Positions 11,963 through 35,019 of a DNA stretch of 64,000 nt are shown here, piece by piece (the stretch's first letter is position 1; each line of letters opens with the position of its first letter). A program made the translations under genes and the position numbers. The notes below the pieces were generated by a model. That model was not told the DNA's origin. It saw only the letters and a program-made list of their open reading frames with translations, and searched no databases. The DNA is from Loktanella sp. M215 (lineage in GTDB: Bacteria > Pseudomonadota > Alphaproteobacteria > Rhodobacterales > Rhodobacteraceae): the NCBI RefSeq assembly GCF_021735925.1, contig NZ_WMEA01000001.1:3254001-3318000 (forward strand), written 5' to 3'.

Positions 11963-12032
11963 CCTTCTTCTGGTCGAAAATACTTCGGGGGTCGGGGGGC
12001 TGGCCCCCCGGCGATCTTGCGACGAAAGATCG
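11963..12032 (+). repeat. Type-B intergenic repeat, copy 1
   Basis: Core TTCTTCTGGTC then GAAAATACTTCGGGGG, followed directly by hairpin II (GGGGGGC-TG-GCCCCCC, 11994-12009). The variable hairpin I seen in other copies is absent, but a different hairpin CGATCTT...AAGATCG follows at 12012-12032. It lies between pqiC and the hydantoinase gene. Confidence 0.8.
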
Positions 12033-12124
12033 GTCCGTCGCCGCCGCCCGCGCAGCCGCACATTCCGGTTCCCCTTGTCAGCCGCCCTTGCTAGCGTCGC
12101 CCGACATCACAAGGGGCACCCGAC

Positions 12125-14209
12125 ATGGCAGATCCACATATCCGGCTGGGCGCCGACATCGGCGGCACCTTCACGGATATCGTGCTGGAGGTCGGGACGG
12201 ACCGCTTCTCGACCAAGGTCCTGACCACCTATGCCGCGCCAGAGGATGCCATCGTCACCGGCCTGCATCAGGTCTGCGCCAAAGCGGGCATCCTGCCCTC
12301 CCGCATCGGCCAGATCATCCACGGTACCACGCTCGCCACCAACGCATTGATCGAACGGCGCGGCGCGCGGACGGCCCTGATCACCACCGACGGCTTTCGC
12401 GACGTGATCGAGATGCGTTCTGAATCCCGGTTCGAGCAATATGACCTGAACCTGACGCTGCCCCTGCCCCTGCTGGCCCGCAACCACCGCCATACCCTTG
12501 TGGAGCGCATGGACGCCGACGGCGGTGTGCTGATCCCGCTGGACCACGCCGATATCGTCAGCCTTTGCGACACGCTGCGCCATCACGACTATCAGTCGAT
12601 CGCCGTCGGCCTGCTGCACGCTTACGCCAATCCCGCCCACGAACGTCTGATCCGCGACGTGCTGGCCACGGAACTGCCGGGCGTGATGGTCTCGCTGTCC
12701 TCCGACGTCTCGCCGCAGATGCGCGAATACGAACGCTTCAACACCACCGTCGCCAATGCCTACATCCAGCCCCTGATCGCCAGCTACCTGCACCGCCTCG
12801 CCGACCGTCTGGCCGCCGAGGGGGCGGATTGCCCGGTCTTTTTGATGCATTCGGGCGGCGGAATCATGGATATCGCGACCGCAGCCGACTTCCCCGTGCG
12901 GCTGGTCGAATCCGGACCCGCGGGCGGTGCGGTCTTTGCCGCCGACATCGCGGCGCGCCACGGTCTGGACCGCGTGCTGTCCTTTGATATGGGCGGCACC
13001 ACGGCCAAGATTTGCCTTATCCGCGACCAGACTCCCAAGACCGCCCGCGTGTTCGAGGTCGCCCGCTCCTACCGTTTCAAGAAAGGCTCCGGCATGCCGA
13101 TCTCGATCCCCGTGATCGACATGGTGGAGATCGGCGCCGGCGGCGGGTCGCTGGCCCATGTCGACGCCCTGCACCAGATCCGGGTCGGACCCGAGAGTGC
13201 CGGATCGGAGCCGGGCCCCGCCTGTTACGGGCGCGGCGGTACCCGCCCCGCGGTCACCGACGCTGACCTGACGCTGGGCAAGCTTGACCCCGCGACCTTT
13301 GCAGGCGGCAGCATCCCGCTGGACGCTGCCGCCTCGACCGCCGCGCTGATGACCCATCTGGGCGACGCGTTGGGGATGGACGCCACCGAAGCCGCCTGGG
13401 GCCTGGCCGAGGTCGTGGACGAGACCATGGCCAACGCCGCCCGCGTCCACGCGGTCGAAAACGGCGAGGATCTGTCGGACTACACCATGATCGCCTTCGG
13501 CGGCGCCGCCCCCCTGCACGCTGCGCGCCTGTGCGAAAAGCTGGGCATCAGCCGCTGCCTGATCCCGCCCGGCGCCGGTGTCGGCTCTGCCATCGGCTTT
13601 CTGCGCGCGCCCTTCAGTTTTGAAGCGAACCGCAGCGTCTTCATGCCGCTCGACGCCTTCGATGCCGCCACCGTCCACGCCCTGTTCAACGAGATGCGGG
13701 AGGAGGCGACGGCCTTCGTGCGGTCCTGCGATGCGACCGCATCCATCACCTGCGATTACAAGGTCTTCATGCGCTACAAAGGTCAGGGCTGGGAAATCCC
13801 GGTTCCGCTGACCCGCGAGACGGCGGAAAGTGCCGATGCCACAGCCATCCTCGCGCGGTTCGAGGCCGACTACGCCGCCCTCTTCGGCCGCACCGTGCAG
13901 GGCATGACGGCGGAAATCACCGTCTGGTCGGTGAACGCCCAGACCCCCACGCTGCCGGCCACCCCCGCCTCCCCCGTCGCGGCACACCCCGCCCCCGCCC
14001 CCATCGGCGCGCGTGCGCTCTTCGATGCGGCCCTCGGGCGGGCGACCGCGGCGCAGGTCTACGCCCGCGCTACCCTGACACCGGGCGCCCACCTGCCCGG
14101 CCCCGCCGCCATCACCGAGGACGAGACCACGATCATCGTCCCCGCCAGCCGCCATGCCACCGCCCTGTCGGACGGCTGCATCGCGCTCGACGCAAAGGAC
14201 CCGTCATGA
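12125..14209 (+). CDS. Hydantoinase/oxoprolinase family protein, subunit A (HyuA-like)
   Basis: A 694-residue ATP-dependent subunit of the N-methylhydantoinase / 5-oxoprolinase / acetone carboxylase superfamily. The phosphate-1 motif GADIGGTFTDIVLE is at residue 9 on and the second ASKHA motif FDMGGTTAKICLI is near 288-300. HGTTLATNALIER and FGGAAPLHAARL are typical of HyuA. An AAGGGG ribosome site precedes the ATG. It is coupled by ATGA to the B subunit, so the pair probably hydrolyses a cyclic amide at the cost of ATP. An SDR and an acyl-CoA dehydrogenase follow downstream, suggesting catabolism of a ring compound feeding a CoA pathway. The substrate is unknown. Confidence 0.88.
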   Translation: MADPHIRLGADIGGTFTDIVLEVGTDRFSTKVLTTYAAPEDAIVTGLHQVCAKAGILPSRIGQIIHGTTLATNALIERRGARTALITTDGFRDVIEMRSESRFEQYDLNLTLPLPLLARNHRHTLVERMDADGGVLIPLDHADIVSLCDTLRHHDYQSIAVGLLHAYANPAHERLIRDVLATELPGVMVSLSSDVSPQMREYERFNTTVANAYIQPLIASYLHRLADRLAAEGADCPVFLMHSGGGIMDIATAADFPVRLVESGPAGGAVFAADIAARHGLDRVLSFDMGGTTAKICLIRDQTPKTARVFEVARSYRFKKGSGMPISIPVIDMVEIGAGGGSLAHVDALHQIRVGPESAGSEPGPACYGRGGTRPAVTDADLTLGKLDPATFAGGSIPLDAAASTAALMTHLGDALGMDATEAAWGLAEVVDETMANAARVHAVENGEDLSDYTMIAFGGAAPLHAARLCEKLGISRCLIPPGAGVGSAIGFLRAPFSFEANRSVFMPLDAFDAATVHALFNEMREEATAFVRSCDATASITCDYKVFMRYKGQGWEIPVPLTRETAESADATAILARFEADYAALFGRTVQGMTAEITVWSVNAQTPTLPATPASPVAAHPAPAPIGARALFDAALGRATAAQVYARATLTPGAHLPGPAAITEDETTIIVPASRHATALSDGCIALDAKDPS

Positions 14210-15888
14210 CCCTGTCCCAAGTACAATATCAGGTGATGTGGACGCGCCTGATCTCGGTGGTCGAGGAACAGGCGCAGGCCTTGGTCCGGACGGCCTTTTC
14301 CACTTCGGTGCGCGAGGCGGGCGATCTGTCTGCGGGTGTCTACGATGCCGACGGCGCGATGCTGGCGCAGGCCGTCACCGGCACGCCGGGCCATGTCAAC
14401 GCCATGGCCGACGCGGTGCCGCATTTCATTCGGGAAATCGGGCACGAGACGATGCGCGACGGCGATGTCTACCTGACCAACGACCCCTGGATGGGCACCG
14501 GCCATCTGCACGATATCACCGTCGTTACGCCGACGTTCCACGACGGCACGCTGGTCGGCTTCTTCGGCTGTACCGCCCATGTGGTCGACATCGGCGGGCG
14601 CGGCTTTGGCGCCGACGGCAATTCGATCTACGAAGAAGGCCTGCAACTGCCGATCATGCGCTTTGCGGACGCTGGCCGCGTGGACCAGACCCTGATCCGC
14701 CTGATCCGTGCCAACGTGCGCGAACCCGACCAGCTGATTGGCGACCTTTTCGCCCTGTCCACCTGCAACGAGATCGGCCAGCGCCGCCTGATCGAGATGC
14801 TGACGGAATTCGACCTGAGCGACCTGTCTGATGTCGCCGGTTTCATCCTCGGCCACTCCCGCGACGCCACGCTGGCCCGAATCGCGGCGCTGCCAAGGGC
14901 CAGCGCCACCGGCCACATGCAGATCGATGGCTATGCCGTCCCGGTGGACCTGAACGTCACCGTCAGCTTCAACGGCGATCATGTGCTCTGCGACTGGACC
15001 GGCACGTCCGGCCTCGATCCCAAGGGCATCAACGTGCCGCTGGTCTATACCAAGGCCTACGCCTGCTACGCGCTCAAATGCGCCATCGCGCCCGACATCC
15101 CGAACAACGCGGCCAGCCTCGCCCCCTTCCGGATCACAGCGCCTGCGGACACGATCGTCAATGCCGTCCATCCCGCACCCGTCGCCCTGCGCCACGTCAT
15201 CGGCCATCTTGTGCCGGACACGATCTTCGCGGCCCTCGACCAGCTCTTGCCCGGCGTCGTCCCGGCAGAGGGCGCGGGGTGTCTGTGCAACTTCCAGCTC
15301 TCCCTGCGCCCTGGTGACGGTGCCCCCACCGGCGCCCGCCGGGCCGAGGTGTTGACCTTCAACTCCGGCGGGGCCGGTGCGCGGCCGACCCTCGACGGGC
15401 TGTCCGCCACCGCCTTCCCCTCCGGCGTGATGACCATGCCGGTCGAGGCAACGGAACACGCGGGCCCGGTTATCATCTGGCGCAAGGAACTGCGCCCCGA
15501 CTCGGGCGGTGCCGGTCAGTTCCGCGGCGGTCTCGGTCAGGTGATGGAGGTCGGCGCGCGGGACGGCTACGTCGCCGATTTCTCAGCCATGTTCGACCGC
15601 GTCGACCACCCCGCGCGCGGACGCCATGGCGGTGCAGACGGCGCGCCGACGACGGTGGCACTCGACGACGGCACCCGCCTGCGCGGCAAGGGCCGCCAGC
15701 CGGTACCGCAAGGTGCCCGCGTCATGCTCGCCTTCCCCGGTGGTGCGGGCTACGGCGCGCCCGCAGACCGCGCCAAAGACGCCGTCGCCCGGGACCTTGC
15801 ACTGGGCTACATCACACTGCAGACCGCCCGCGACACCTACGGGATGTCCCAATCCGAAATCGATCCAGACGTGGCCCCCGGTCGGTAA
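14206..15888 (+). CDS. Hydantoinase B/oxoprolinase family protein (HyuB-like)
   Basis: A 560-residue partner subunit of the hydantoinase/oxoprolinase complex. Family marks are REAGDLSAGVYDADGAMLAQ near residue 39, HIGDVY-type segment DVYLTNDPWMGTGHLHDI near residue 87, and ELRPDSGGAGQFRGGLGQ near 430. It overlaps hyuA by ATGA, as is usual for the pair. The length is normal. A type-B repeat with two hairpins starts just after the stop, separating this pair from the SDR gene 221 bases on, so the downstream genes may be a separate transcript. Confidence 0.88.
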   Translation: MTLSQVQYQVMWTRLISVVEEQAQALVRTAFSTSVREAGDLSAGVYDADGAMLAQAVTGTPGHVNAMADAVPHFIREIGHETMRDGDVYLTNDPWMGTGHLHDITVVTPTFHDGTLVGFFGCTAHVVDIGGRGFGADGNSIYEEGLQLPIMRFADAGRVDQTLIRLIRANVREPDQLIGDLFALSTCNEIGQRRLIEMLTEFDLSDLSDVAGFILGHSRDATLARIAALPRASATGHMQIDGYAVPVDLNVTVSFNGDHVLCDWTGTSGLDPKGINVPLVYTKAYACYALKCAIAPDIPNNAASLAPFRITAPADTIVNAVHPAPVALRHVIGHLVPDTIFAALDQLLPGVVPAEGAGCLCNFQLSLRPGDGAPTGARRAEVLTFNSGGAGARPTLDGLSATAFPSGVMTMPVEATEHAGPVIIWRKELRPDSGGAGQFRGGLGQVMEVGARDGYVADFSAMFDRVDHPARGRHGGADGAPTTVALDDGTRLRGKGRQPVPQGARVMLAFPGGAGYGAPADRAKDAVARDLALGYITLQTARDTYGMSQSEIDPDVAPGR

Positions 15889-15890
15889 GT

Positions 15891-15956
15891 CCCCCCTTCT
15901 TCTGGTCCCAAATACTTCGGGGGGAGTCCGCGCAGCGGACGGGGGGCTGGCCCCCC
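15891..15956 (+). repeat. Type-B intergenic repeat, copy 2
   Basis: Core TTCTTCTGGTC then CCAAATACTTCGGGG. Hairpin I is GTCCGC-GCA-GCGGAC (15926-15940) and hairpin II is GGGGGGC-TG-GCCCCCC (15941-15956). It begins immediately after the hyuB-like stop. The remaining 150 bases to the SDR gene hold no other signal I could support. Confidence 0.82.
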
Positions 15957-16109
15957 TTTCATTCGAGACACGGCTTACCGCCCCGTCGCGACACCACAGG
16001 CCGCGGGAAGGCCCCGACGCTGGGCCGGGTCTGGACCTTTTCCCGCGCGCGCGCAAAGGTGCGCTGGCGCGGCCCGCGGGCGGCGCGCACAGGCAGGGAG
16101 TGAGGCACA

Positions 16110-16871
16110 ATGGATATCGCAGGACAGGCCGCCATCGTCACGGGCGGCGCATCGGGACTGGGGGCCGCGACGGCGCGCGCGCTGGCGGCGGCGGGGGCGC
16201 GGGTCGCGATCCTCGACATGAACGCGGATAAAGGTGCTGCCGTCGCAACCGAGATCGGCGGCCTGTTCTGCCAGACGGATGTGACCGATCCCGCCAGCGT
16301 CGCGCAGGCGTTGAAGGGTGCGGACGGTCTGCACGGTGCGGCGCGCATCGTGGTGAACTGCGCCGGCATCGGCCCGCCCGCCAAGGTGGTCAGCCGCGAC
16401 GGCGATCCGCTGCCGCTGGCGGATTTCATGCACGTGATCAACGTGAACCTCGCGGGCAGTTTCAACGTGCTGTCACAGGCCGCGGCGATGATGCAGCCGC
16501 TGGACCCGCTGGGCGAGGAGCGTGGCGTGATCATCAACACGGCCTCTGTTGCGGCCTACGACGGGCAGATCGGTCAGGCGGCCTATGCGGCCTCCAAGGG
16601 CGGCATCGTCGCGATGACCCTGCCCGTGGCGCGCGAAATGGCCCGCTTCGGCATCCGGGTGATGACCATCGCGCCGGGTCTCTTCCTGACGCCGCTCTTG
16701 GAAAGCCTGCCGCAGGATGCGCAGGATTCGCTGGGCCGTCAGGTGCCCTTCCCCTCACGCCTTGGCCATCCGGACGAATACGCAAAGCTGGCATTGGCCA
16801 TCGTCGATAATCCCATGCTGAACGGCGAGGTCATCCGTCTGGACGGCGCGATCCGCATGGCACCCAAATGA
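16110..16871 (+). CDS. SDR family oxidoreductase, 3-hydroxyacyl-CoA dehydrogenase type II-like
   Basis: A 253-residue short-chain dehydrogenase. The NAD site [19 protein letters not shown] sits at residues 11-29. The catalytic Ser is in [12 protein letters not shown], and the YAASKGG motif supplies Tyr and Lys. The [12 protein letters not shown] segment after the active site and the whole pattern resemble HSD17B10-type 3-hydroxyacyl-CoA dehydrogenases. GGGAGTGAGG precedes the ATG. It is ATGA-coupled to an acyl-CoA dehydrogenase, so the two likely act on successive beta-oxidation-like steps of one acyl-CoA. The exact substrate cannot be told. Confidence 0.87.
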
Positions 16872-18052
16872 GCGCGACACTGGAACGGCGCGGGATCAGC
16901 GACCGCGCACTGGCACTGGCGGACCGGGTCGAAGCCTTTGTCCGCGACATCGTCGTCCCCTTCGAAAAGGACCCCCGCCAAGGGGCGCACGGACCCTCGG
17001 AAGCCCTTGTCGCGGATCTGCGCGCCAAGGCCCGCGATGCTGGCCTGATGACGCCACATATCCTGTCGTGCGGCGGCCACCTGACCCAGCGCGAGACGGC
17101 GGCGGTGCTGATCCGCTCCGGCCTCTCGCCCCTCGGTCCCGTGGCGCTGAACACTGCAGCCCCCGACGAAGGCAACATGTTCCTGCTGGGCCGCGTGGCG
17201 AGCGACGACCTGAAGGCGCGTTTTCTGGCGCCTCTCATCAGCGGTGACGCGCGCTCCGCCTTCTTCATGACGGAACCCGACGGCGGTGCCGGATCGGACC
17301 CGTCGATGATGAAGACGACCTGCGTACCCGACGGCAACCACTGGGTCATCAACGGGGCCAAGACCTATATCACCGGGGCCGAGGGGGCGCGCGTCGGCAT
17401 CGTCATGGCGAAATCCGACACCGGTGCGTGCATGTTCCTCGTCGACCTGCCGCATCCTGCGATCCGGACCGTGCGGATCCTCGACACCATCGACAACTCG
17501 ATGCCCGGCGGCCACGCCGAGATCGCGATTGAAAACCTCCGCCTGCCCGCCGACCAGATGCTGGGAGAGCCCGGCGAAGGGTTCCGCTACGCACAGGTGC
17601 GTTTGGCCCCCGCGCGTCTGTCGCACTGCATGCGCTGGCTGGGCGCCTGCGTGCGTGCGCAAGAGATTGCGGTCGACTACGCCAACCGCCGCCACGCCTT
17701 TGGCAAACCCCTAGTCGAACACGAAGGCGTCGGTTTCATGCTGGCCCAGAACCGGATCGACCTGAAACAGGCAGAGCTGATGACGCTCTGGTGTGCCGAT
17801 GTGCTGGACAGCGGCGCCTATGGCACCACCGAATCCTCGATGACCAAGGTCGCGGTGTCAGAGGCGCTGATGCGGGTCGCCGACAACTGCGTGCAGGTGA
17901 TGGGCGGTCAGGGCGTCACGGCGGACACGATTGTCGAGAAGGTCTTTCGCGAAATCCGCGCTTTCCGCATCTACGACGGTCCGACCGAGGTGCACAAATG
18001 GTCGCTCGCGGGCAAGATCGCGCGGGACTGGAGGAAACTCCAGCCCGAGTAG
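16868..18052 (+). CDS. Acyl-CoA dehydrogenase family protein
   Basis: A 394-residue flavoprotein oxidising an acyl-CoA at the alpha-beta bond and passing electrons to ETF. Typical segments are [15 protein letters not shown] near residue 135, [15 protein letters not shown] near 160, the FAD/tetramer region [17 protein letters not shown] near 276, [12 protein letters not shown] near 345, and the closing [17 protein letters not shown]. The pattern matches the ACAD10/11-like branch. The ATGA overlap with the SDR gene indicates one operon. It meets the convergent Gfo/Idh gene with only 3 bases between the stops. Confidence 0.88.
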
Positions 18053-18055
18053 CGG

Positions 18056-19147
18056 TCAGTGCAGCATCACCGCCAGCCCTGTCCGTGCCGAAAGCTGCGC
18101 TGCAAGGCCGATCTGCACCGCGCGCGTCCCGTCCGCCACCGTCACCTCGACCCGACCTCCTTCACGAACCACCCCGGCAAACCGCTGGTGCTGATAGAAT
18201 GTCGATCCGTTGTGATCACCGGCCTGCAGAAGCAGCGGATCGACCGGGATCTCGACCGTGTAGGGTCCCTTCGGACTGCGCGGGCTGACCGTCAGCAGCG
18301 GCGTCGGCGCGGGGCCAAGGGTCGCAGGCCAGAACCGGCCGGGTCCGGGCACCTGCGCCTCGATCTTGCCCAAGGGCCCCATGGCGCTGATCTCTTCCTG
18401 ATACCGCGCACCTTCGGCGAACATGCACAACTCCAGCATCGCCCGCGCGCCGCTGGCGAAATCCACGATCACATAGCCATTGTCCCAGATGTCGGGCATC
18501 CGCCCGTCGTAGCGTTCGTCCTTGTGGTTCACGTCCTGACCGGCGCTGGCCATCACACGGACCGCCTCTGACCCAAGGATCAGCCGCATCAGGTCGAAGA
18601 AATGGCAGCATTTTTCGACCAGCGTCCCGCCAGAGCGGGCGTTGAACCGGTTCCAGTCGCCGACCTTGGGCAAGAACGGAAAGCGGTGTTCGCGGATCGT
18701 CAGCATCCGGATGCCGCCGGTCGCCGCCGCGGCCTGCGCGATCAGGGCGGCCACGGGCGGCATGTAGCGATATTCCATCGCCACCCAGACCGGGTGGCGA
18801 TAGCCATCGAACAGCGCGGCAACCGCCGCCGCCTCGGCGTCGGCCGTGAACAGCGGCTTTTCGCATAGGATCGGCAGGGGCCGTGTTTCCACGATCCGGC
18901 GCAATTGCGGCACGTGGCAGTCGTTCGGACTGACGATCACCAGCGCATCCAGCGCAGGCTCTGTCAGCAAATCATCGAGCGACGCCGCAACGCGCGCGCC
19001 CCCCGCCATGTCTGCCGCCGTCCGGGCGAGACCCACGACCGGATCATAGACGACGCCGACCCGCGCCCCCGGCACCAGCGCGATGTTGCGGATATGCTCC
19101 TGGGCCATCATGCCGCAGCCGATCAGCCCATATGTCAGTGTCTTCAC
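18056..19147 (-). CDS. Gfo/Idh/MocA family NAD(P)-dependent oxidoreductase
   Basis: A 363-residue sugar- or inositol-type dehydrogenase. It has an N-terminal Rossmann fold (YGLIGCGMMAQEHIRNI), the signature CEKPLF near residue 95 with the catalytic-site Lys, and a C-terminal substrate domain with GGTLVEKCCHFFDLMR carrying the family's GG...D/H...H pattern. It lies 4 bases downstream of the GntR regulator, so the two are co-transcribed. The divergent partner transcript holds an SsuD-like monooxygenase and an aldo-keto reductase, which makes a sugar-like substrate for the whole locus attractive but unproven. Confidence 0.88.
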   Translation of the reverse strand: MKTLTYGLIGCGMMAQEHIRNIALVPGARVGVVYDPVVGLARTAADMAGGARVAASLDDLLTEPALDALVIVSPNDCHVPQLRRIVETRPLPILCEKPLFTADAEAAAVAALFDGYRHPVWVAMEYRYMPPVAALIAQAAAATGGIRMLTIREHRFPFLPKVGDWNRFNARSGGTLVEKCCHFFDLMRLILGSEAVRVMASAGQDVNHKDERYDGRMPDIWDNGYVIVDFASGARAMLELCMFAEGARYQEEISAMGPLGKIEAQVPGPGRFWPATLGPAPTPLLTVSPRSPKGPYTVEIPVDPLLLQAGDHNGSTFYQHQRFAGVVREGGRVEVTVADGTRAVQIGLAAQLSARTGLAVMLH

Positions 19148-19151
19148 GACG

Positions 19152-19859: not shown

Positions 19860-19872
19860 GGTGCAATCCGGA

Positions 19873-19893
19873 TTGATACACCATTGTTACACC
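19873..19893. promoter_or_regulatory. Candidate GntR operator: tandem TTGNTACACC repeats
   Basis: TTGATACACC and TTGTTACACC lie in direct repeat with an 11-base period, in the divergent region between the GntR gene (start 19859) and the monooxygenase (start 19944). The spacing of one helical turn and the placement fit a regulator site; no binding data exist. Confidence 0.45.
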
Positions 19894-19943
19894 CCGTGCT
19901 TCATGCTACGCAAGAGCCGGCGATACGTCTGCGAGAGGGGCCC

Positions 19944-21998: not shown

Positions 21999-22505
21999 AT
22001 GGATGCAGGCACGATCCAGTCGTTCGACCCCTCCGCCGATGCAAACAGCTTTCGCGGCGCCTTGGGCAGCTTCGTCACCGGCGTCACGGTCATCACGACC
22101 GACAGCCCGGACGGCCCCGTCGCCATGGTCGCGAACAGCTTTGCCAGCGTGTCCCTCGACCCGCCGCTGGTGCTGTGGTCACCGGCCAAATCCAGCAAGC
22201 GGTTCGAACATTTCGCAGGCTCCCGCCGCTTTGCCGTGCACGTCCTGTCCGCCGACCAGCGCGATGTCTGTGCAGCGATCATCGCGTCCAAGACCGCCAT
22301 CGCGAAGGTGCCGATGCATCTGTCCCACTGCGGCATGCCCCTGATCGAAGGCGCGCTCGCGACCTTCGAATGCAGCCTCGAGGCGACCCACGATGCCGGC
22401 GACCATGTCATCATCGTCGGCCGCGTGACCAAGGCCCACCATACGGGCGGAGCGCCGCTGGTGTTTCACGCGGGTACCTATGGGCGATTTGCCCGCCAAG
22501 GCTGA
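21999..22505 (+). CDS. Flavin reductase family protein (FMN reductase partner of the monooxygenase; candidate SmoA)
   Basis: A 168-residue flavin reductase-like protein with the short-chain FMN reductase fold of two-component monooxygenases. Landmarks are FVTGVTVITTDSPDGPVAMVANSF-type residues 25-48, SLDPPLVLWS at 51-60, and FAVHVLSADQ near 78. The C-terminal GRVTKAHHTGGAPLVFHAGTYG carries the conserved His-rich loop and closing strand. It starts one base after the aldo-keto reductase stop, so the three genes form one operon, and this enzyme would supply FMNH2. A type-B repeat follows the stop and separates it from the convergent xylB. Confidence 0.88.
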   Translation: MDAGTIQSFDPSADANSFRGALGSFVTGVTVITTDSPDGPVAMVANSFASVSLDPPLVLWSPAKSSKRFEHFAGSRRFAVHVLSADQRDVCAAIIASKTAIAKVPMHLSHCGMPLIEGALATFECSLEATHDAGDHVIIVGRVTKAHHTGGAPLVFHAGTYGRFARQG

Positions 22506-22517: not shown

Positions 22518-22578
22518 CGCCCTTCTTCTGGTCGAAAATACTTCGGGGGAGGCGCGCAGCGCCGGGGGCAGCGCCCCC
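22518..22578 (+). repeat. Type-B intergenic repeat, copy 3
   Basis: Core TTCTTCTGGTC then GAAAATACTTCGGGGG. Hairpin I is GGCGC-GCA-GCGCC (22551-22563) and hairpin II is GGGGGC-AGC-GCCCCC (22564-22578). It fills the 100-base gap between two convergent operons and is probably a bidirectional end signal. Confidence 0.82.
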
Positions 22579-26280: not shown

Positions 26281-26314
26281 GGAAAAACCGGCGCAGGTGT
26301 AACCTGCGCCGGTT
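26281..26314 (-). terminator. Attenuating terminator between xylF and xylH
   Basis: Read on the minus strand: AACCGGCGCAGGT, loop TAC, ACCTGCGCCGGTT, then a T-run (five Ts counting the stem end). A 13-bp perfect stem with a T tail just after xylF is a convincing intrinsic terminator. Partial read-through would express xylH-xylG-xylB below xylF. Confidence 0.82.
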
Positions 26315-26325
26315 CCGGTCATGGC

Positions 26326-27357: not shown

Positions 27358-27430
27358 GGTGTCCTCCCAGACAGAATGTCCCGCTTGGCGGGGATTCGGG
27401 GCCTTGCGGCCCTGTGCCGCTCAAAATGCC

Positions 27431-27490
27431 GATAATAGTTCAGTTGTCAAAATAATTTGCGCGGGCGCGCGGAATAATCTTGCCAAAATC
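27431..27490. promoter_or_regulatory. AT-rich control region between xylF and xylR
   Basis: The only AT-rich patch in the 234-base divergent gap. It holds the ATAATAGTT and AATAATTTGC blocks, then GGAATAATCTTGCC, with two AATAAT half-sites flanking a GCGCGGGCGCGC centre. A minus-strand TTGACA (27445-27450) could be a -35 for xylF, but no good -10 lies 17 bases on. It is offered as the likely XylR operator and promoter region only. Confidence 0.35.
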
Positions 27491-27591
27491 GGGGGTCGAA
27501 GGCGTAATGCGCCACGATGACGCTGCCGGGAGGGCGGACGCGACCAGGAGTCGTGTTCGCAGGCGCAGCATTATCTTTGGGGGTTGAAGTT

Positions 27592-28836: not shown

Positions 28837-30317
28837 TGCGCCTTGCCCTGCTTCTGGCACTGATGGCGGGCCCGGCCGCGGCACAGGTCAGCTTTACCGA
28901 CCTCTCGCAAGCCCTTGGCGATCACACCTATGCGGGCGGGTGGGAGCATTTCGTCGGCGGCGGTGTCGCCGTGATGGACTGCAACGGCGACGCGCGGCCC
29001 GACATCTTTGCCGCCGGTGGCACCACCCCAGCCGCCCTCTGGATCAACCGGGGCGATTTCCGCTTCGATCCGGCCCCCCTACCGGATCTGACCGAGACGA
29101 CGGGCGCCTATCCCATCGACATCGACGGCGACGGCCTGCTGGACCTCTACGTCATGCGCGTGGGCCCCGACGTGGCGCTGAAGGGGGGTCCGGATTGCCG
29201 CTTCACCGATGCGACGGCGGACTGGGGCATCCCCCAGACCGACCAGTGGACCACCGCCTTCACCGCCTGGTGGGAGGCGGAGAGCGACCGCCCGGTGATG
29301 GCGGTGGGTCACTACGTCGACCGCAGCAATCCAGATGGCCCGTTCTTTGCCTGCGACACCAACACCATCCTGCGCCCCGCACCGACGGGCTACAGTGCCG
29401 AAACGCTGGCCCCCGGCTTCTGCCCGCTGTCGATGCTCGCCGCCACCGACGCCCGCGGCCGGATGACCCTGCGTCTGTCAAACGACCGGCAATACTACGT
29501 CCGCGGCGGTTCGGAACAGATGTGGGACATCATGGACCGCCGCTTCCTGACCGAGGCTGACGGTTGGAAAGAGGTCTCGCTCTGGGGCATGGGGATCGCC
29601 AGCGCCGACGTGACCGGCGACGGGCGCGACGACGTCATGCTGACCTCGATGGGTGACCAACTGCTGCAACTGGCCCAGCCAGACGGCACTTACGTGCCAG
29701 CCCCTTACGGCATCGGCACCTACGCGCAGCGCCCCTACCTTGGCGACGACGGCCGCCCCTCGACCGGCTGGCATTCGGAATTCGGCGACGTGGACAACGA
29801 CGGACGGCTGGATCTGTTCATCGCCAAGGGCAACGTCGACCAGATGCCGACCAACGCCATGGCCGACCCCAACAACCTGCTGATACAACGCCCCGACGGC
29901 ACGTTTGAGGAGGTCGCGGCCACCGCAGGCCTCGCCGACACCCACCGTGCGCGGGGTGCGGCGCTGGCGGATTTCGACGGCGACGGCCGCCTCGATCTGG
30001 TGGTGGTGAACCGCCGCGCGCCCATGCTGCTTTATCGCAACGACACACCCGCCACGGGTCAATGGCTGGGTTTGGCACTGACGCAGGCCAACGGCAACAC
30101 GCAGGCCATCGGCGCCCGCATCACGGTCACCACGCCTGACCTGACCCAGACCCGAGAGATCCGTGTCGGTGGCGGCCACGCGGGCGGACAGGCCCTGCCG
30201 CTCCACATCGGCCTCGGCCCCGCCACTGCCGCGGATGTCACCGTCACCTGGCCCGACGGCACGACCACCACGCAGACCTTGCCCGCAGACACACTGGCAC
30301 GGCTTTCACACGACTAA
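28833..30317 (+). CDS. CRTAC1-like secreted protein with FG-GAP/VCBS repeats and ASPIC/UnbV domain
   Basis: A 494-residue exported protein with a short signal peptide (MMRLALLLALMAGPAAAQ). Several calcium-binding-like FG-GAP repeats follow: DCNGDARPDIF, DIDGDGLLDLY, DVTGDGRDDVML, DVDNDGRLDLF and DFDGDGRLDLVV. The last 100 residues form an ASPIC/UnbV domain (IGARITVTTPD...REIRVGGGHAGG...VTVTWPDG). A seven-blade propeller is expected. The function of the family is poorly known. It overlaps xylR by ATGA and faces a di-haem peroxidase gene across a type-A repeat; such proteins sometimes neighbour MauG-type peroxidases. Confidence 0.85.
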   Translation: MMRLALLLALMAGPAAAQVSFTDLSQALGDHTYAGGWEHFVGGGVAVMDCNGDARPDIFAAGGTTPAALWINRGDFRFDPAPLPDLTETTGAYPIDIDGDGLLDLYVMRVGPDVALKGGPDCRFTDATADWGIPQTDQWTTAFTAWWEAESDRPVMAVGHYVDRSNPDGPFFACDTNTILRPAPTGYSAETLAPGFCPLSMLAATDARGRMTLRLSNDRQYYVRGGSEQMWDIMDRRFLTEADGWKEVSLWGMGIASADVTGDGRDDVMLTSMGDQLLQLAQPDGTYVPAPYGIGTYAQRPYLGDDGRPSTGWHSEFGDVDNDGRLDLFIAKGNVDQMPTNAMADPNNLLIQRPDGTFEEVAATAGLADTHRARGAALADFDGDGRLDLVVVNRRAPMLLYRNDTPATGQWLGLALTQANGNTQAIGARITVTTPDLTQTREIRVGGGHAGGQALPLHIGLGPATAADVTVTWPDGTTTTQTLPADTLARLSHD

Positions 30318-30332
30318 GTGCGCACCACCTCG

Positions 30333-30362
30333 CTTTTTCCCAAATACTCCCGCCGGAGGCTC
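30333..30362 (+). repeat. Type-A intergenic repeat, copy 2
   Basis: TTTTTCCCAAATACT then CCCGCCGGAGGC, with hairpin CTCC-CGCC-GGAG. It lies in the 80-base gap between the convergent CRTAC1-like and peroxidase genes and is nearly identical to the copy at 2482. Confidence 0.75.
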
Positions 30363-30397
30363 CGACGCCTGCCAAGACGCACGGACAGGATGCGGGC

Positions 30398-31747
30398 CTA
30401 CGGCACCGGCAACCCGCTCGGCACCGCCAGCGGCACACCCAGCCGTCCCTTGATCGCCGATGGATCGGTCAGGCTGTCCAGGAACGCGACCAGCGCCGTC
30501 ACATCCTCCGCCGACAGCACGACCGGCGGCCTGCGCACCGCTGCGGCGATGGCTGCGACTTCGGCGGGGTCGGACATGATCGCGTCGTCGCGCACGTCGA
30601 GCTTAGGCAGGATGGCCTGCGCGATGTCATAGCGCGACAGGGCCGCCACCGGGTCGGCGTGATCGGCCACGAAGCCTGCCAGAGTCGCATGGCTGCCCGC
30701 GTGGCCGTAGGGCGCCGTCAGGGCCACGTTACGCAGCGACGGCGTGCGGAAGGCGAACAGATCCTCCGGCTGTCCCGTGACCTCGAACCGGCCCTCGTCC
30801 CGGTCAGAGGATTCGAACCGCGCGCCCTTGCCGGGACCGATCTGTGGCGCGCCCATCGCATGGTAGCCCTGATCGGTCAGCAACGGACCGCTGTGGCAGG
30901 TGCCGCAGCCGGCCCGGCCATAGAAGAGGTCCATGCCCGTGGCCGCAGGCTCCGGCAGTGCCGCCGCGCCCCGCAGGACGGCATCGAAGGGTGACGCGTC
31001 GGACCGCCACTCCGCCTCCATAAAGGCCGCGATCGCGTTCGAGATGTCGGTGAAGCCGATATCCTCCGGACCGGTCACCTGTGGATAGACGTCCCGGAAC
31101 ATCTGCGCATAGGCGGGGATGTCTGCCACGCGGCGCGCGATCAGGTCCCACGCCCCGCCCGGGCCCGTCAACAGGCCCTGCCGCACGGCGCGCGAGACAT
31201 CGCTTTCGGCGTAGTGTCCGGCCATCTCGTCGGGGCTCAGCACCGGAAACATCGTCTGCGCCGACAGCAAAGACGCGAACCCCGTCACCATGTCGTCGTC
31301 CAGCGGCGTGCGGATGCCGCCGGGGCGGCTGGCGTCAACGCTGATGCGCCCGTCGTCGAACAGAACCGTCAAGTTGCGCAGACCGAGGTTGAACAGGGCG
31401 GGCGCGTTGCGCGGTATCCGCTCTTCCGGCAGATTGGCGGGATCGGCGGTCCGCGCTGGTCCGAGGCCAATGCCACCGTCGCCAAGGCCCAGCGACAGCC
31501 CGTCGGCGGTGCCGAAACGGGGATGATGGCAGGTCGCGCAGGCCACGTCACGGCCCCCCGACAGGACCGGATCGTAGAACAGAAGCTGCCCCAGAGCGGC
31601 CTCGCCCAGGTCCACGGGCAGGAAATCGGCATCCAGCAAAGGCGGCGGCAAGGGCGATATCTGCGCGGGTGTCTGCATTTGCGTCTGGGCGGACGCCTGC
31701 GTGCCAGCCACCACTGACAGAACCGCCATGATCCGTGTCGCTCTCAT
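30398..31747 (-). CDS. Di-haem cytochrome c peroxidase family protein (MauG-like)
   Basis: A 449-residue periplasmic protein with a signal peptide (MRATRIMAVLSVVAGTQASAQ) and two c-type haem sites, CATCH at residues 70-74 and CGTCH in the second half. Typical segments are LGQLLFYDPVLSGGRDVAC, RIPRNAPALFNLGLR and FRTPSLRNVALTAPYGHAG. The family reduces hydrogen peroxide or carries out MauG-type oxidations. The start was chosen from GGGGGAGAGA upstream; the longer frame enters the SOS promoter region. It is convergent with the CRTAC1-like gene and divergent from imuA. Confidence 0.88.
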   Translation of the reverse strand: MRATRIMAVLSVVAGTQASAQTQMQTPAQISPLPPPLLDADFLPVDLGEAALGQLLFYDPVLSGGRDVACATCHHPRFGTADGLSLGLGDGGIGLGPARTADPANLPEERIPRNAPALFNLGLRNLTVLFDDGRISVDASRPGGIRTPLDDDMVTGFASLLSAQTMFPVLSPDEMAGHYAESDVSRAVRQGLLTGPGGAWDLIARRVADIPAYAQMFRDVYPQVTGPEDIGFTDISNAIAAFMEAEWRSDASPFDAVLRGAAALPEPAATGMDLFYGRAGCGTCHSGPLLTDQGYHAMGAPQIGPGKGARFESSDRDEGRFEVTGQPEDLFAFRTPSLRNVALTAPYGHAGSHATLAGFVADHADPVAALSRYDIAQAILPKLDVRDDAIMSDPAEVAAIAAAVRRPPVVLSAEDVTALVAFLDSLTDPSAIKGRLGVPLAVPSGLPVP

Positions 31748-31957
31748 GCCAGTCTCTCCCCCGTCAGCCCCCGCAGGTCCGCAGACCTGCCCTGTCCGGC
31801 GCACAATGGCGGAACGGAAGATGCACCGCAACGGCGATCCCGCAGCCGTTTCACCGTGCCGCATGCGACGGCGGGGTGCCCCTGCGGCACAGGCTGACCG
31901 TCGCGCGGGTACAATCCGGTACCGCCTCGTTTCGGGTCAAAAGGATATCTTGAAGAT

Positions 31958-31997
31958 TTGACGAAAGGCCCGGCACGGTATAGAACAAATGAGGAAC
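31958..31997 (+). promoter_or_regulatory. SOS promoter of imuA with LexA box
   Basis: GAAC-AAATGAG-GAAC at 31983-31997 reads GTTC-N7-GTTC on the other strand, the LexA site known for Rhodobacter and other alphaproteobacteria. It overlaps a promoter-like pair, TTGACG (31958-31963) and TATAGA (31979-31984), spacing 15. The box ends two bases before the chosen imuA start, so the leader must be very short or translation begins further on. Confidence 0.75.
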
Positions 31998-31999
31998 AA

Positions 32000-32734
32000 A
32001 TGGAATCGGATGCGCCTGTGACCACGCCCCTCGACACCGCAGGAACCTTCTTTGCAAGCCGCATGTCACCGGGCCGGGCTGCCCCTGCCGGTCACGATGC
32101 GGATCACACCGCACTCTGCGTGGCGGACCCGACCCTTTCGGAATACTTCACGGACAATGCCGCCGACGGGGCCGTGACGGCCTTCGTCTTTGGCCAACTG
32201 ACGCAGATCGCGGCCTCGGGCAAACCGGTCCTGTGGGTGCAGGACCGGGTGACCCAGCGCGAATCGGGCAAGCCCTTTCCCGCCGGCCTTCCCGCCGGCC
32301 TACGGCTGATCCTCGTGACCGTGAACCGGGCCGTCGACGTGTTGTGGAGCATGGAGGAAGGCCTGCATTGCGATGCCTTGGGCGCGGTGCTGGGCGAGCT
32401 TTGGGGCGATCCGCCCGCACTGGACTTTACCGCGACCAAGCGTCTGGCCCTGCGGGCAGAGGCGCGGTCGATTCCCGCCCTGCTGATCCGGCGCGCCGCC
32501 CATCCGAACCTCAGTGCGGCGCGCCAGCGCTGGCGAATCACGTCCCTGCCCGCCCGCCTGGACCCCGACGACAACCGCGCACCCGGCGCGCCGCTCTGGC
32601 AGGCGGACCTGTTCCGCGCCCGCGGTCGGGCGCCGGGCCAATGGGTCGCGGGTCCGGGGGATGCAGGTGTTGTGCTGTCGCACAATGTCCACATGAACGA
32701 CGCCCCCCATCATGCCGCCCGCATCGCCGGCTGA
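32000..32734 (+). CDS. imuA: ImuA, SOS mutagenesis accessory protein (SulA/RecA-like)
   Basis: A 244-residue RecA-like accessory factor of the damage-inducible mutasome. It works with ImuB and DnaE2 in translesion synthesis. The fold is recognisable from AVTAFVFGQLTQIAASGKPVLWVQ, LPAGLRLILVTVNRAVDVLWSMEEGL (the usual ImuA helix), LDFTATKRLALRAEA and RWRITSLPA. The ATG at 32000 follows GAGGAAC, but that same stretch is the LexA box. If the transcript starts near 31992 the mRNA would be almost leaderless, and a downstream ATG at 32063 is the alternative. imuB overlaps its 3' end. Confidence 0.87.
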   Translation: MESDAPVTTPLDTAGTFFASRMSPGRAAPAGHDADHTALCVADPTLSEYFTDNAADGAVTAFVFGQLTQIAASGKPVLWVQDRVTQRESGKPFPAGLPAGLRLILVTVNRAVDVLWSMEEGLHCDALGAVLGELWGDPPALDFTATKRLALRAEARSIPALLIRRAAHPNLSAARQRWRITSLPARLDPDDNRAPGAPLWQADLFRARGRAPGQWVAGPGDAGVVLSHNVHMNDAPHHAARIAG

Positions 32735-34742
32735 ATATCCCAGGCCTCTGGCTGTTATCCTTCAAAGTCTGACCCCGATGACCAAAGACAGCACCTCTCG
32801 GATCCTGCCGTTCCCCGCCTCCCGCGTGTGTCGCGCCGCGGTCGGACCAGGCCATGCCTCACGCACTGCAGCGGCGGTCGTGCACCCCGTTGAAGCGGCC
32901 CGCTTGTCCGGTGCGCTGGACATCATGGATCTGGCCCGGACCTCGCTGGCGCCCGGATCACAGGGGGCCAGCGTTGCAAGGCTTGGAAACCTCCTCCCAG
33001 CCGTCCAGCCGGATGCAGGGCAGACAGCCCCCCGGCCGCAGATGCGCCCCACCCTGACGACCGTCTCGGACAAGGCGATACCGGTCCTTCACGCGCCGGT
33101 GCTGCGCGCCAGCAGCCCTGTCCCGCCCCCGCCACCGGTGACCCGGCGCGGCACCGACGACAGCACCGACCGGGACACCGGGTCCGGACCGCAGACGGAT
33201 CGCACCCTTCTGACGCGCCGTATCGTCAGCGTGCATCTGACGGATTTCGCGATGGCCCGCTGGCTGCGCTGGGCCCATGCACGCCATGACGCGCCCCCCG
33301 ATGACCTGCCCGTGATCCTGGCCGCCGAAGGGCCGCACGGCCCCGTCGTGGTTGCCACGAATCGCGCGGCGACGCTGGCGGGGTTGCATACCGGCGCACG
33401 GGTCGTCGACATGCGCGCCCTGTGTCCTGCGGTGCGCGTGGTGCGCGCCGACCCCGACGGCGACCGTGCGGCGCTGGAGAAGCTGATGCTCTGGGCGCGA
33501 CGCTGGTGTCCGTGGACCGCCGTGGACGGCGCGGACGGGATCGTGATGGACACGACCGGCTCCGATCATCTCTGGGGCGGAGAGGACGCTCTGCTGCGCG
33601 AGATCGAAGGCACGCTGGGCACCCTGGGGTTCGCCAGCCGCCTTGCGATGGCGCCGACCCATGGTGCCGCCTGGGCGCTAGCCCGCTTCGGCCCCGTGCG
33701 CAGCATCGCGACACCCGACACGCTGACGGACCGCACGGCCCCCCTGCCCGCGCGGTCCCTGCGGCTGGCGGCAGACACGGTCCTGCTGCTGCAAAGACTG
33801 GGCCTGAAATCCGTGGGCGACATCGCCGCCGTGCCGCGCCTCAGCCTGACCCGCCGGTTCGCGAACGCGGCCCTCGCGCAAAACCCTCTCGCACGGCTGG
33901 ACCAATTGCAGGGCCGCATGGCGGAACCGGTCAGCGCCGGTCAGGACTTGCAACACTTTGCCGTGCAGGTCCGCCTGCCTGAACCGGTGCAGGATCCCAC
34001 ACCCTATCTGCCGGATCTGTGCGCCAGCCTCTGTGCCGCCTTGGCCGACGCCGGCTGCGGCGCCCGCAAGCTGACCGTCACTGTCTATCGCACGGACGCA
34101 GAGGTCAGCGCGGTTACCGCCGCCACCGCCCGCGCCAGCCGCGACCCCATACACTTGCGCCGTCTGTTCGATGACCGCCTGGACAGGATCGACCCCGGAT
34201 ACGGGTTTGAATTGATCACGCTCGATGCAGATATCACCGAAGGCATGGCAGCGGTCCAGACCACTCTGGAAGGCCGCGCGGAAAACGGTGCGGCCTTGGC
34301 GCAGATGGTGGACAGGCTCTCGGCGCGCCTTGGGGCACAGGCTGTCCGCACGCCCGCCTCTCACGAAAGCCATATTCCCGAACGCAGCCTCGCATGGGCG
34401 CTGGCCTTGTCGCAGGCCCCGCTGAAAGCGGATGCGCTGGATTGTGCGCACCGCCCGCTGCGGCTTTTGGATACCCCGGAAGAGATCAACGTTCTCTACG
34501 CAGTTCCCGAAGGACCACCCGTGCAGTTTCGATGGCGGCGTGTCCCGCACCGGATCACCCGCTTTACGGGGCCGGAGCGGATCGCACCGGAGTGGTGGTA
34601 TGACCGCCCTGGCACGCGTCTGCGCGATTACTATCGCATCGAGGACGACAGCAACCGTCGCCTGTGGATTTACCGTGATGGTGTCTACGGTGACGAGGGA
34701 GCCGGAGCGCCGCGGTGGTTCGTGCACGGCATCTTCGGCTGA
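32712..34742 (+). CDS. imuB: ImuB, catalytically degenerate Y-family polymerase homologue, with N-terminal extension
   Basis: 676 residues from an ATG overlapping imuA by 23 bases; 654 if the ATG at 32778 is used. The Y-family body begins only near residue 167 (RRIVSVHLTDFAMARWLRW). The usual catalytic acids are absent: the first motif reads VHLTDF, and the second reads MDTTGSDHLWGG in place of SIDE. Both are normal for ImuB, which acts as a scaffold binding the clamp, ImuA and DnaE2. The C-terminal ERIAPEWWYDRPG...RDYYRIED...RLWIYRDG block is the ImuB-specific tail. The first 165 residues are Pro/Ala/Arg-rich, of unknown purpose, and might be partly untranslated. No ribosome site decides the start. 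Confidence 0.85.
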   Translation: MPPASPAEYPRPLAVILQSLTPMTKDSTSRILPFPASRVCRAAVGPGHASRTAAAVVHPVEAARLSGALDIMDLARTSLAPGSQGASVARLGNLLPAVQPDAGQTAPRPQMRPTLTTVSDKAIPVLHAPVLRASSPVPPPPPVTRRGTDDSTDRDTGSGPQTDRTLLTRRIVSVHLTDFAMARWLRWAHARHDAPPDDLPVILAAEGPHGPVVVATNRAATLAGLHTGARVVDMRALCPAVRVVRADPDGDRAALEKLMLWARRWCPWTAVDGADGIVMDTTGSDHLWGGEDALLREIEGTLGTLGFASRLAMAPTHGAAWALARFGPVRSIATPDTLTDRTAPLPARSLRLAADTVLLLQRLGLKSVGDIAAVPRLSLTRRFANAALAQNPLARLDQLQGRMAEPVSAGQDLQHFAVQVRLPEPVQDPTPYLPDLCASLCAALADAGCGARKLTVTVYRTDAEVSAVTAATARASRDPIHLRRLFDDRLDRIDPGYGFELITLDADITEGMAAVQTTLEGRAENGAALAQMVDRLSARLGAQAVRTPASHESHIPERSLAWALALSQAPLKADALDCAHRPLRLLDTPEEINVLYAVPEGPPVQFRWRRVPHRITRFTGPERIAPEWWYDRPGTRLRDYYRIEDDSNRRLWIYRDGVYGDEGAGAPRWFVHGIFG

Positions 34743-34767
34743 TGCGCCCGTTGGCCCCTGTCGCTCA

Positions 34768-34826
34768 GGGGGCCAGCCCCCCAGGGCCGGAGGCCCTTCC
34801 CCCCGAAGTATTTTTGACCAGAAGAA
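34768..34826 (-). repeat. Type-B intergenic repeat, copy 4 (inverted)
   Basis: On the minus strand: TTCTTCTGGTC then AAAAATACTTCGGGG, hairpin I GGGCC-TCC-GGCCC (34784-34796), and hairpin II GGGGGGC-TG-GCCCCC. It is the only copy in this orientation and faces copy 5 across the imuB-dnaE2 gap. Confidence 0.8.
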
Positions 34827-34904
34827 ACAACGGTTTGTTAACCGATCTGCTGCATTCTAAATCCGCGGTACAGGCGGAAGCGCCGATGACTGCACCAGGA
34901 GAAG

Positions 34905-34936
34905 GCGTCCCGTCGCCCCAGAAGGCCACGGGACGC
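34905..34936. terminator. Hairpin in the imuB-dnaE2 gap
   Basis: GCGTCCCGT, 14-base loop, ACGGGACGC: a perfect 9-bp stem without a T-run. It may be a terminator or another RNA structure. Confidence 0.4.
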
Positions 34937-34962
34937 TCGACCCACCTCAGGTATTTGGGCCT

Positions 34963-35019
34963 TCTTCTGGTTCCAAATACTTCGGGGGGGCCGCCTTCGG
35001 CGGCGGGGGCAGTGCCCCC
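34963..35019 (+). repeat. Type-B intergenic repeat, copy 5
   Basis: TTCTTCTGGTT then CCAAATACTTCGGGG, hairpin I GCCGCC-TTC-GGCGGC (34990-35004), and hairpin II GGGGGC-AGT-GCCCCC (35005-35019). It ends 29 bases before the dnaE2 start, the only copy found in a 5' leader. Confidence 0.82.

Follow-up and report, generated by a model that had tools for sequence, protein, structure and literature searches.

Gene-end repeats of Loktanella sp. M215 as probable targets of a small guide RNA encoded between imuB and dnaE2

Clustered regularly interspaced short palindromic repeat (CRISPR) effectors, the omega RNAs of TnpB and IscB and the bridge RNAs of IS110 elements combine a constant RNA scaffold with a variable guide, and bridge RNAs possess two guide segments. 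Repetitive extragenic palindromes (REPs) are in turn built around a conserved hairpin. In Rhodobacter sphaeroides the small RNA (sRNA) StsR is reported to stimulate the cleavage of UpsM by RNase E via base pairing (PMC8307010). We analyzed 64,000 nucleotides of Loktanella sp. M215 (hereafter the window; G000:C1:3254001-3318000, G000 being our label for this genome of 5.2 Mb), which contain five copies of an intergenic repeat. Very probably these repeats serve as targets for a small guide RNA whose gene lies between imuB and dnaE2, and they would act as regulated transcript boundaries at gene ends. Scaffold, targets, covariation, orthology and synteny were established by comparing genome sequences.

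The proposed RNA would consist of a conserved hairpin scaffold, an 11-nt guide and usually another hairpin. It would recognize its target in two places, the guide pairing with an 11-nt box and the apical loop of the scaffold forming a kissing contact with the four nucleotides behind an AAATA motif, which leaves NNNAAATA unpaired between both contacts. Each Loktanella genome would encode two to four such RNAs (families A, B and C) that differ in guide and loop, and at least A and B would have target sets, comprising 48 (A) and about 80 (B) sites in the own genome. If guide and loop change in a lineage and the targets follow, dialects would arise; genomes likely have their dialects because a guide RNA with matching guide and loop lies in the same genome.

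The guide-RNA gene and its complementarity to the repeats

Within the window AAATACTTCGGGG occurs five times with up to two mismatches (shuffled windows: mean 0.41, maximum 2), and the whole genome contains 85 matches to CTTCTGGTNNNAAATACTTCGGGG with up to three mismatches compared with none for the reversed control pattern. The layout of these family-B elements, derived from 75 own copies, is CTTCTTCTGGT-NNN-AAATA-CTTC, GGGG and mostly two hairpins or one extended hairpin. Conserved is the unpaired core, consisting of the 11-nt box, NNN, AAATA and 4 nt. Family A (CCTCGCTTTTT-NNN-AAATACTCC, in most cases with a hairpin resembling CGCCGGAGGC) accounts for 48 own-genome matches with up to two mismatches, and the family-C guide RNA is located at G000:C1:1748768-1748808. 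Positions are given in Table 1.

Table 1. Repeat elements and parts of the guide-RNA gene in the window
Feature	Position	Strand	Context and remarks
Family-B target, single hairpin	11963..12009	+	12 nt past the stop codon of the gene (11387-11950) for an ABC-transport auxiliary lipoprotein
Family-B target, hairpins I and II	15895..15956	+	just past hydantoinase B gene (14206-15888)
Family-B target, hairpins I and II	22521..22578	+	after flavin-reductase gene (21999-22505), convergent with FGGY kinase gene
Family-B target, upstream half of inverted pair	34768..34828	-	antisense to imuB and the guide-RNA gene
CtrA-box-like motif TTAA-N7-TTAAC	34827..34842	+	second half TTAAC at 34838-34842; first half weak, 2/4
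Guide-RNA scaffold	34865..34893	+	model match G000:C1:3288865-3288905, E 1.6e-10
Guide ACCAGGAGAAG	34894..34904	+	complementary to family-B box CTTCTTCTGGT, 10 Watson-Crick pairs and 1 G.U
Hairpin CGUCCCGU...ACGGGACG	34906..34936	+	directly behind the guide; possible guide-RNA terminator
Family-B target, downstream half of inverted pair	34960..35019	+	dnaE2 leader
Family-A element (box CCTCGCTTTTT, AAATACTCC, CGCCGGAGGC hairpin)	2477..2509	+	guide RNA outside the window, G000:C1:3538897-3538937
Family-A element	30328..30360	+	
Probable family-C element (box CCTCTCTATTT, AAATATCCC)	52937..52969	+	9/11 guide:box pairs by eye

Two of the family-B elements form an inverted pair in the imuB/dnaE2 interval, and this pair is conserved. 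Between its members lies GCGGTACA-GGCG-GAAG-CGCC-GATGACTGC-ACCAGGAGAAG (34865-34904). The scaffold comprises an outer stem (GCGGU/ACUGC), an internal loop (ACA/GAUG), an inner stem (GGCG/CGCC) and the apical loop GAAG (34877-34880), which is complementary to the CTTC behind AAATA in the targets. The upstream element of the pair, which reads as hairpins followed by GAAGTATTTTT on the plus strand, has orthologues in L. salsilacus and L. atrilutea. The fold of the 162-nt guide-RNA stretch amounts to -90.6 kcal/mol (z -5.2). At the counterpart in L. atrilutea the guide is ACGAGGAGAAG for the box CTTCTTCTCGT, and in 12 counterpart loci read in other genera both the guide and the apical loop agreed with the local dialect. 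A covariance model built from these 12 guide loci (threshold E ≤0.01) detected the scaffold in 153 of 198 sampled genomes of the family Rhodobacteraceae, mostly with 1-4 matches each; nine Loktanella genomes contain 2-4 scaffold RNAs each. The motif AAATACYYCGGGG was found in 129 of the 198 genomes, with copy numbers in the tens and a maximum of 156, compared with 0-1 matches per strand for the reversed control. The scaffold stems covary as well: the inner closing pair is T-A in 45 loci, G-C in 27 and A-T in 8, and isolated double changes occur in the outer pairs. Upstream of the guide TTAA-N7-TTAA, the CtrA consensus used in Roseobacters (PMC4046655), scores at least 6/8 in 77 of 80 loci, compared with about 0.4% of background positions. 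With this CtrA-like box in front the guide RNA is presumably transcribed. A hairpin of at least 5 bp follows within 50 nt past the guide in 63 of 80 loci, a count made without shuffled control.

Complementarity was counted in 80 distinct guide loci (four duplicates dropped), where a script recognized an upstream element in 75 and a downstream element in 68. Of 825 cells comparing guide and upstream box, 797 are paired (96.6%, 75 loci), and sliding the box by 1, 2 or 3 positions lowers pairing to 60.0, 48.7 and 55.8%. Pairing with the downstream element reaches 95.3%. Among 47 different guides two-sided changes were observed at 10 of the 11 positions. Loop positions 2-4 showed two-sided changes in 17, 33 and 18 loci and were unpaired in 0, 1 and 0, with eight loops in total including GGGA for AAATA-TCCC, GACA for TGTC and GCCG for CGGC. 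All 54 loci from the model search had the AAATA motif at the expected place, and in 44 the best element had no guide mismatch; when either guides or loops were permuted among these loci, the observed fit was reached in 0 of 2000 cases each. The loci L420, L422, L423 and L445 (read) and L446 (fetched) were excluded from the counts; L and G numbers denote loci and genomes.

Agreement was also seen at a distance from the guide genes. For this we used AAATAYYY places that adjoin no guide gene, taken from fetched loci, and since these loci were fetched by known dialect, the numbers describe agreement and not the total of sites. At 133 such own places the own family-B guide fits without mismatch at 72 and the own family-A guide at 43, the family-B guide of L. 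atrilutea at none. Loop positions 2-4 are Watson-Crick paired at 73 of the 133 when the own loop is used and at none with that of L. salsilacus, where they become G.U. Conversely, 48 of 106 places in L. salsilacus are Watson-Crick paired with its own loop and 0 with the Loktanella sp. M215 loop, and at 15 places in L. atrilutea its own guide fits 11, the Loktanella sp. M215 guide 2. Where dialects had been read before the guides, 12 of 13 genome-dialect pairs fit fully and one (G088, TCC family) with one mismatch. These comparisons cover G099, G153, G005, G088 (two), G142, G031, G192 (two), G027, G010, G044 and G110 and leave out the guides of G035, G016 (TTTCATCGAG box), G159, G012 and G046 (TCATCTTGC) and others with known dialect; the dialect of G010 rests on two sites, one of them adjoining the guide gene, and G031 has one extra T in the box and one extra A in the guide. 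As in trans-acting base-pairing RNAs, complementarity is maintained by covariation. The comparison indicates that the two-part complementarity is under selection and that guide and targets change together, and we infer that the guide RNA pairs in trans with its targets.

Pairing in cis was considered as well. The imuB/dnaE2 interval and its counterparts would then be leaders with a short open reading frame (ORF; GGAG, AUG) and an attenuator whose two halves pair, and the other copies would share the dialect via a protein. The apical loop is followed by an AUG after 5 nt and indeed resembles a ribosome-binding site, and in most loci guide and downstream box lie on one transcript (68 of 80 with downstream element). 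However, the loops GACA, GCCG and GAAG are poor ribosome-binding sites and yet covary with the target, the peptides are by eye unconserved past about codon 7, and the antisense upstream element, which is not on the transcript, matches as well as the downstream one. In addition, the neighbouring genes differ between the families and the same guides fit places not flanking the guide gene. We consider pairing restricted to cis highly improbable.

Several points weigh against a guide RNA acting in trans. Loop position 1 does not pair in 23 of 75 loci, and guide position 6 is a near-constant G.T wobble (57 of 75), both unexplained by the model. The best element has one guide mismatch in 5, three in 4 and six in 1 of the 54 loci, and family C fits worst (L413, L414, L415, L416, L418). 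The covariation counts ignore kinship among the loci, and the distant loci were chosen by dialect as stated above. The complete genome G086 has 12 AAATACYYCGGGG sites but no scaffold at E ≤0.01, and G015 and G023 carry scaffolds and no AAATACYYCGGGG; strict filters or other dialects possibly lie behind this discordance. The likeness of the apical loop to a ribosome-binding site belongs here too, as does the protein partner: none was found among the nearest called genes of the 54 loci, which were read with no effector search made.

These nearest genes cluster into glutathione S-transferase, a 70-aa protein, acyl-CoA dehydrogenase, imuB, dnaE2, GntR-type, Pyr_redox and small groups. Family-A guide loci have a glutathione S-transferase gene nearby in 22 cases, with the 70-aa protein (13) or acyl-CoA dehydrogenase often on the opposite side; in Loktanella, family B is located between imuB (8) and dnaE2 (9), and family C lies between a GntR/FCD regulator (6) and a Pyr_redox protein (7). 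The same guide locus carries different guides in different genera. No effector gene was recognized among the recurrent nearest neighbours, the single-member groups being partly unidentified and no search for effectors of the CRISPR, omega RNA or IS110 type having been made; PADLOC models gave no match on ImuB and DnaE2. The 70-aa protein, which has no Pfam family and adjoins the family-A guide gene in 13 loci (L411 and 12 others), is a possible partner. Rfam 15 yielded nothing above gathering score in the window and three sub-threshold matches in seven guide loci, the best with 25.3 bits against a cut-off of 80 (ryfA).

Hairpins and gene context of the elements

A preliminary description of this stretch had listed five copies of the repeat, all of which are present (Table 1), and had proposed that their hairpins keep pairing while the bases change, that they lie at gene ends and that they resemble terminators when read from the hairpin side. 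Counts in the whole genome bear out the pairing and the location at gene ends. Hairpin II was recognizable in 64 own elements, 29 of them with a spacer of at least 10 nt. In 26 of these 29 long spacers hairpin I forms, compared with 5.7 expected from shuffled spacers, and its 5' arm occurs in 18 different versions. In the single-hairpin elements the first outer pair is always Watson-Crick (35 of 35; permutation mean 24.8) and the second in 27 of 35 (permutation mean 12.3), values reached by 0 of 2000 permutations in either case. Folding z-scores of single copies are weak, ranging from -0.13 to -1.47, and the structure is therefore supported by covariation and not by energy. A hairpin II of G- and C-runs is common in kind across the copies; the hairpin is nevertheless the most variable part of the element, and some copies of family A have a weak one or none. 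In family-A copies such as L346, L348 and L351 the core ends with AAATACTCAAA, followed by little or no hairpin. Between the element's own hairpin and the dialect bases no consistent partner for covariation in cis was seen by eye.

The terminator-like order, hairpin then GUAUUU, is found on one strand only. On the other strand TTT follows within 12 nt past hairpin II in 6 of 17 parsed tandem-sense versus 1 of 18 tandem-antisense copies, 6 of the 75 copies being unparsable. Since some family-A targets have little or no hairpin, a terminator function alone cannot account for the core. Behind the elements L002, L006, L022, L039 and L049 a second repeated T-rich hairpin (CCGATTTTTCG...CGAAAAATCGG) was noticed downstream of hairpin II, mostly where the gene reads in the direction of the element.

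Genes around the elements were called by a simple gene finder, for which the fetched DNA served as training set. The 75 own family-B copies comprise 29 in convergent and 38 in tandem position (19 sense, 19 antisense), 2 divergent ones and 6 overlapping a called ORF; a recount under slightly different rules gave 28 convergent, 19 sense, 21 antisense, 2 divergent and 5 ORF-overlapping copies. For 45 family-A copies we obtained 13 tandem sense, 12 tandem antisense, 11 convergent and 2 divergent positions, with 7 overlapping ORFs or unplaceable. As sense and antisense are about equally frequent in both families, the elements mark gene ends irrespective of the strand.

Tags of self DNA with dialects, co-opted as terminators, would be an analogue of the DNA uptake sequences (DUS) of Neisseriaceae, which show parallel dialects and an association with terminators (PMC3630211, PMC1852404). 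The CtrA-like box would fit, as competence and gene transfer agents are under CtrA control in Rhodobacterales (PMC6473078). DUS, however, are present in hundreds to thousands of copies, also inside genes; here the genomes contain tens to 156 copies, the own genome 85 matches, and 69 of the 75 own copies lie between genes, 6 overlapping a called ORF. Recognition would moreover proceed by an RNA guide and not by a pilin, which leaves the analogy highly improbable.

Dialects at orthologous sites and beyond the family

Elements are spelled in a genome-specific manner: TCC was present at 35 of 35 sites in G035 and in G005 at all listed sites but one. Mixed spellings within G010, G134 and G187 are expected, as there are several families per genome. 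Each box goes along with one YYC within a genome; TCATCTTGC has CTC at all listed sites of G010, G032 and G152, and TCC at all listed sites of G006, G041, G060, G070, G110 and G192 (Pseudooceanicola onchidii).

By their flanks, with the element masked, we identified 43 orthologous sites, 29 in L. salsilacus (G006) and 14 in L. atrilutea (G198), of which 29 are supported by both flanks and 14 by one. Core position 18 is identical in 0 of the 43, being always T here and always C in both sister species. Position 6 is identical in 31 of 43, and the 12 differences, all in L. atrilutea, are G to C. The other fixed core positions are 98-100% identical and positions -12 to -8 only 40-56%; the L. salsilacus loci were picked with a pattern that fixes the box, so their box identity is partly ascertainment, with position 18 left free (C or T), and two L. 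atrilutea loci with the box CTGGT stem from the same pattern. NNN identity is 0.61 in orthologs versus 0.50 in random pairs, a value reached by 15 of 5000 permutations, and the hairpins of orthologs resemble each other far more than those of random pairs do (0 of 5000). Considering the shared positions, the ortholog-specific NNN and hairpins and the uniform dialect changes together, the orthologous elements are, on the evidence of their sequences, inherited sites that were re-spelled in concert.

Gene conversion between copies was rejected, as NNN is site-specific between uniform flanking bases and the hairpins are ortholog-specific. A fast-evolving DNA-binding protein, our first idea, was dropped once the guide was seen. 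At some orthologous sites the hairpin type differs wholly between species while the flanks are 80-88% identical (L286/L009, L150/L048); given these cases, the hairpin part may occasionally have been replaced.

The same data bear on mobile palindromes of the REP type, which are associated with RAYTs (REP-associated tyrosine transposases) and would have spread in a burst of their own in each genome. The preliminary description had counted a mobile palindrome among its likely readings, next to a transcript-end or RNA-stability element, and repeats, hairpins, location at gene ends and genome-specific sequence would indeed fit. However, none of the 12 element genomes tested contains the Y1 transposase family PF01797 (it is present in 1 of 10 genomes chosen for having no AAATACYYCGGGG), and the copies keep their orthologous positions with mainly the dialect bases changed within the core. 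A constant core beside a variable hairpin, with 18 different 5' arms of hairpin I in 26 copies, is the opposite of REPs, and we regard mobility of this type as extremely improbable. Of the earlier view a structured intergenic family at gene ends stands, and the mobile palindrome finds no support; the dialect-specific core and the guide-RNA gene (34865-34904) had been overlooked, since other genomes are needed to see both.

Six more ortholog pairs tie own sites to relatives with the box CATCATCTTGC, four of them on a single flank and two of these on the same own site. The family-A box CTCGCTTTTT is constant in G000 (48), G198 (43) and G203 (35) despite differing family-B boxes; judged by these boxes, families A and B change independently. 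In L. salsilacus 25 copies have the box TCATCTTGC, which is quite unlike the own family-A box and for which a matching guide exists at L312. Of 20 fetched TCATCTTGC sites 11 map to own family-A sites and none maps in place to a family-B site; the other 9 have no mapped own site, and three further matches to own family-B loci were neighbours (reversed or more than 2 kb off). The same TCATCTTGC that is the family-A box in L. salsilacus is found at family-B sites of other Loktanella (L312, L263, L265, L279). Code words seem to be reused between families.

Beyond the sampled family, 18 of 239 other genomes of the class sample had 1-2 AAATACYYCGGGG matches, about the level of the control pattern, with no multi-copy presence. 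Plasmid records with the scaffold were found for Paracoccus, Thalassococcus, Cereibacter, Thiothrix and Azospirillum; two short scaffold matches, in Leisingera and Amycolatopsis, fall inside genes. The guide GAACGGAGAAG of P. denitrificans matches the local box CTTCTTCGTTC, the loop GCCG of Thalassococcus the local target CGGC, and in Azospirillum (L423) the guide CACCGACCTTG matches the box TCAAGGTTGGTG, which is followed by AAGTA-CCCC for the loop GGGG. On the Thiothrix plasmid pTfr153 (L422) the scaffold lies near dinD and parAB with no clear target locally. Outside the sampled family and on plasmids the scaffold has almost the same sequence (L422 Thiothrix, L423 Azospirillum, L445 on the Cereibacter plasmid p.D). 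One viral contig matches the scaffold without a matching target, and one each has a target of the TCATCTTGC dialect (L447) and of the TTCTGGT dialect (L448). An origin of the element from phages or plasmids was rejected, there being no phage record and one plasmid match.

Mode of action and relation to described systems

The effect of pairing is likely a regulated or conditional transcript boundary at gene ends, as hairpins accompany most targets; this is the least certain part of the proposal. Whether the guide would act on a DNA strand together with a putative scaffold-recognizing protein is evenly balanced in our view. Both orientations are used equally and an antisense copy is conserved at the guide's own promoter, which leads us to lean towards action on DNA or on two strands. 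Towards the RNA level point the sRNA-like build, the G.U pairs and the AU-rich unpaired centre.

An ordinary trans-acting sRNA operating on RNA only is quite conceivable, if less than probable. It would pair with the sense 3' untranslated region or the nascent transcript and open or block a terminator hairpin or expose AAAUA to RNase E, and the antisense copies would persist on other grounds, for example because their GUAUUU tail serves as a terminator. sRNAs normally pair with RNA in two parts, the AU-rich stretch left unpaired sits between both duplexes, and 26 of 48 copies behind a same-strand gene begin within 20 nt of its stop codon. The family-A loop, GGAG, imitates the arm of the hairpin opposite CTCC, also GGAG, so that sRNA and hairpin would compete, and the reported cleavage of UpsM in R. 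sphaeroides provides a precedent involving RNase E (PMC8307010). Tandem sense and antisense copies are, however, balanced at 19:19 in family B (19:21 in the recount) and 13:12 in family A, and the family-B antisense copy beside the guide gene keeps box and dialect with no leftward gene ending there.

The wider proposal, that of a guide acting on DNA or both strands, could well be correct, although we hold it tentatively. CtrA-linked guide RNAs with an 11-nt guide and a kissing loop would form an undescribed RNA-guided system of Rhodobacteraceae, with scaffold and target also in Azospirillum. They would direct a putative scaffold-binding protein to dozens of gene-end sites, where the boundaries of transcription would be set or DNA would be labelled as self, and guides and targets would be re-coded together. 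If true, this would represent a natural heritable RNA code in which one short guide per family is obeyed by tens to more than 100 sites and which was rewritten repeatedly within one bacterial family. A guide-target system would explain an abundant class of gene-end repeats and may link gene-end control to the CtrA network (motility, competence, gene transfer agents); should the target be DNA, a compact guide RNA with a putative protein would join the RNA-guided systems.

Searches with element and guide sequences as strings returned only unrelated papers, subscription papers, preprints and supplementary tables lying outside the search, and nothing on these elements was found among the topic matches listed. 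The accessible parts of PMC2864571, PMC8632094 and PMC5107571 deal with other RNA motifs and sRNAs of Rhodobacterales, none recognizable there as this guide RNA. One of these RNAs may already have been listed anonymously, for example among the 167 putative sRNAs reported for Paracoccus denitrificans (PMC5107571).

With sRNA regulons such as StsR/UpsM the system shares a structured small RNA, an unpaired stretch complementary to many sites and a promoter-like motif upstream. Here, in contrast, the targets are long, nearly invariant, bipartite, located at gene ends and present in both orientations, and the guide is hypervariable between species on a fixed scaffold with dozens of targets changing along. 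DUS are alike in their short sequence, species-specific dialects and link to terminators, whereas the dialect found here is written in an RNA guide and the copies number tens, not thousands, and are mostly intergenic. REPs with their RAYTs are likewise hairpin-bearing intergenic repeats at gene ends; our elements differ by the lack of a RAYT in the 12 genomes tested, by a conserved core outside the hairpin and by no sign of recent spread at the orthologous sites compared. Intrinsic bidirectional terminators resemble them in the GC hairpin at gene ends with an A-tract on one side and GUAUUU behind the hairpin on the other strand, but here a dialect box and a guide RNA are added and some targets have a weak hairpin or none. 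RNA-guided DNA recognition is similar in its constant scaffold, variable guide and two guide segments, and the invariant AAATA beside the guided bases resembles a target-adjacent motif; the present system differs in having an 11-nt guide and a 4-nt loop directed to many fixed chromosomal targets. We rate hypervariable guide RNAs with chromosomal target families as a new kind of system, whose parts, sRNA pairing and gene-end hairpins, are of known kinds.

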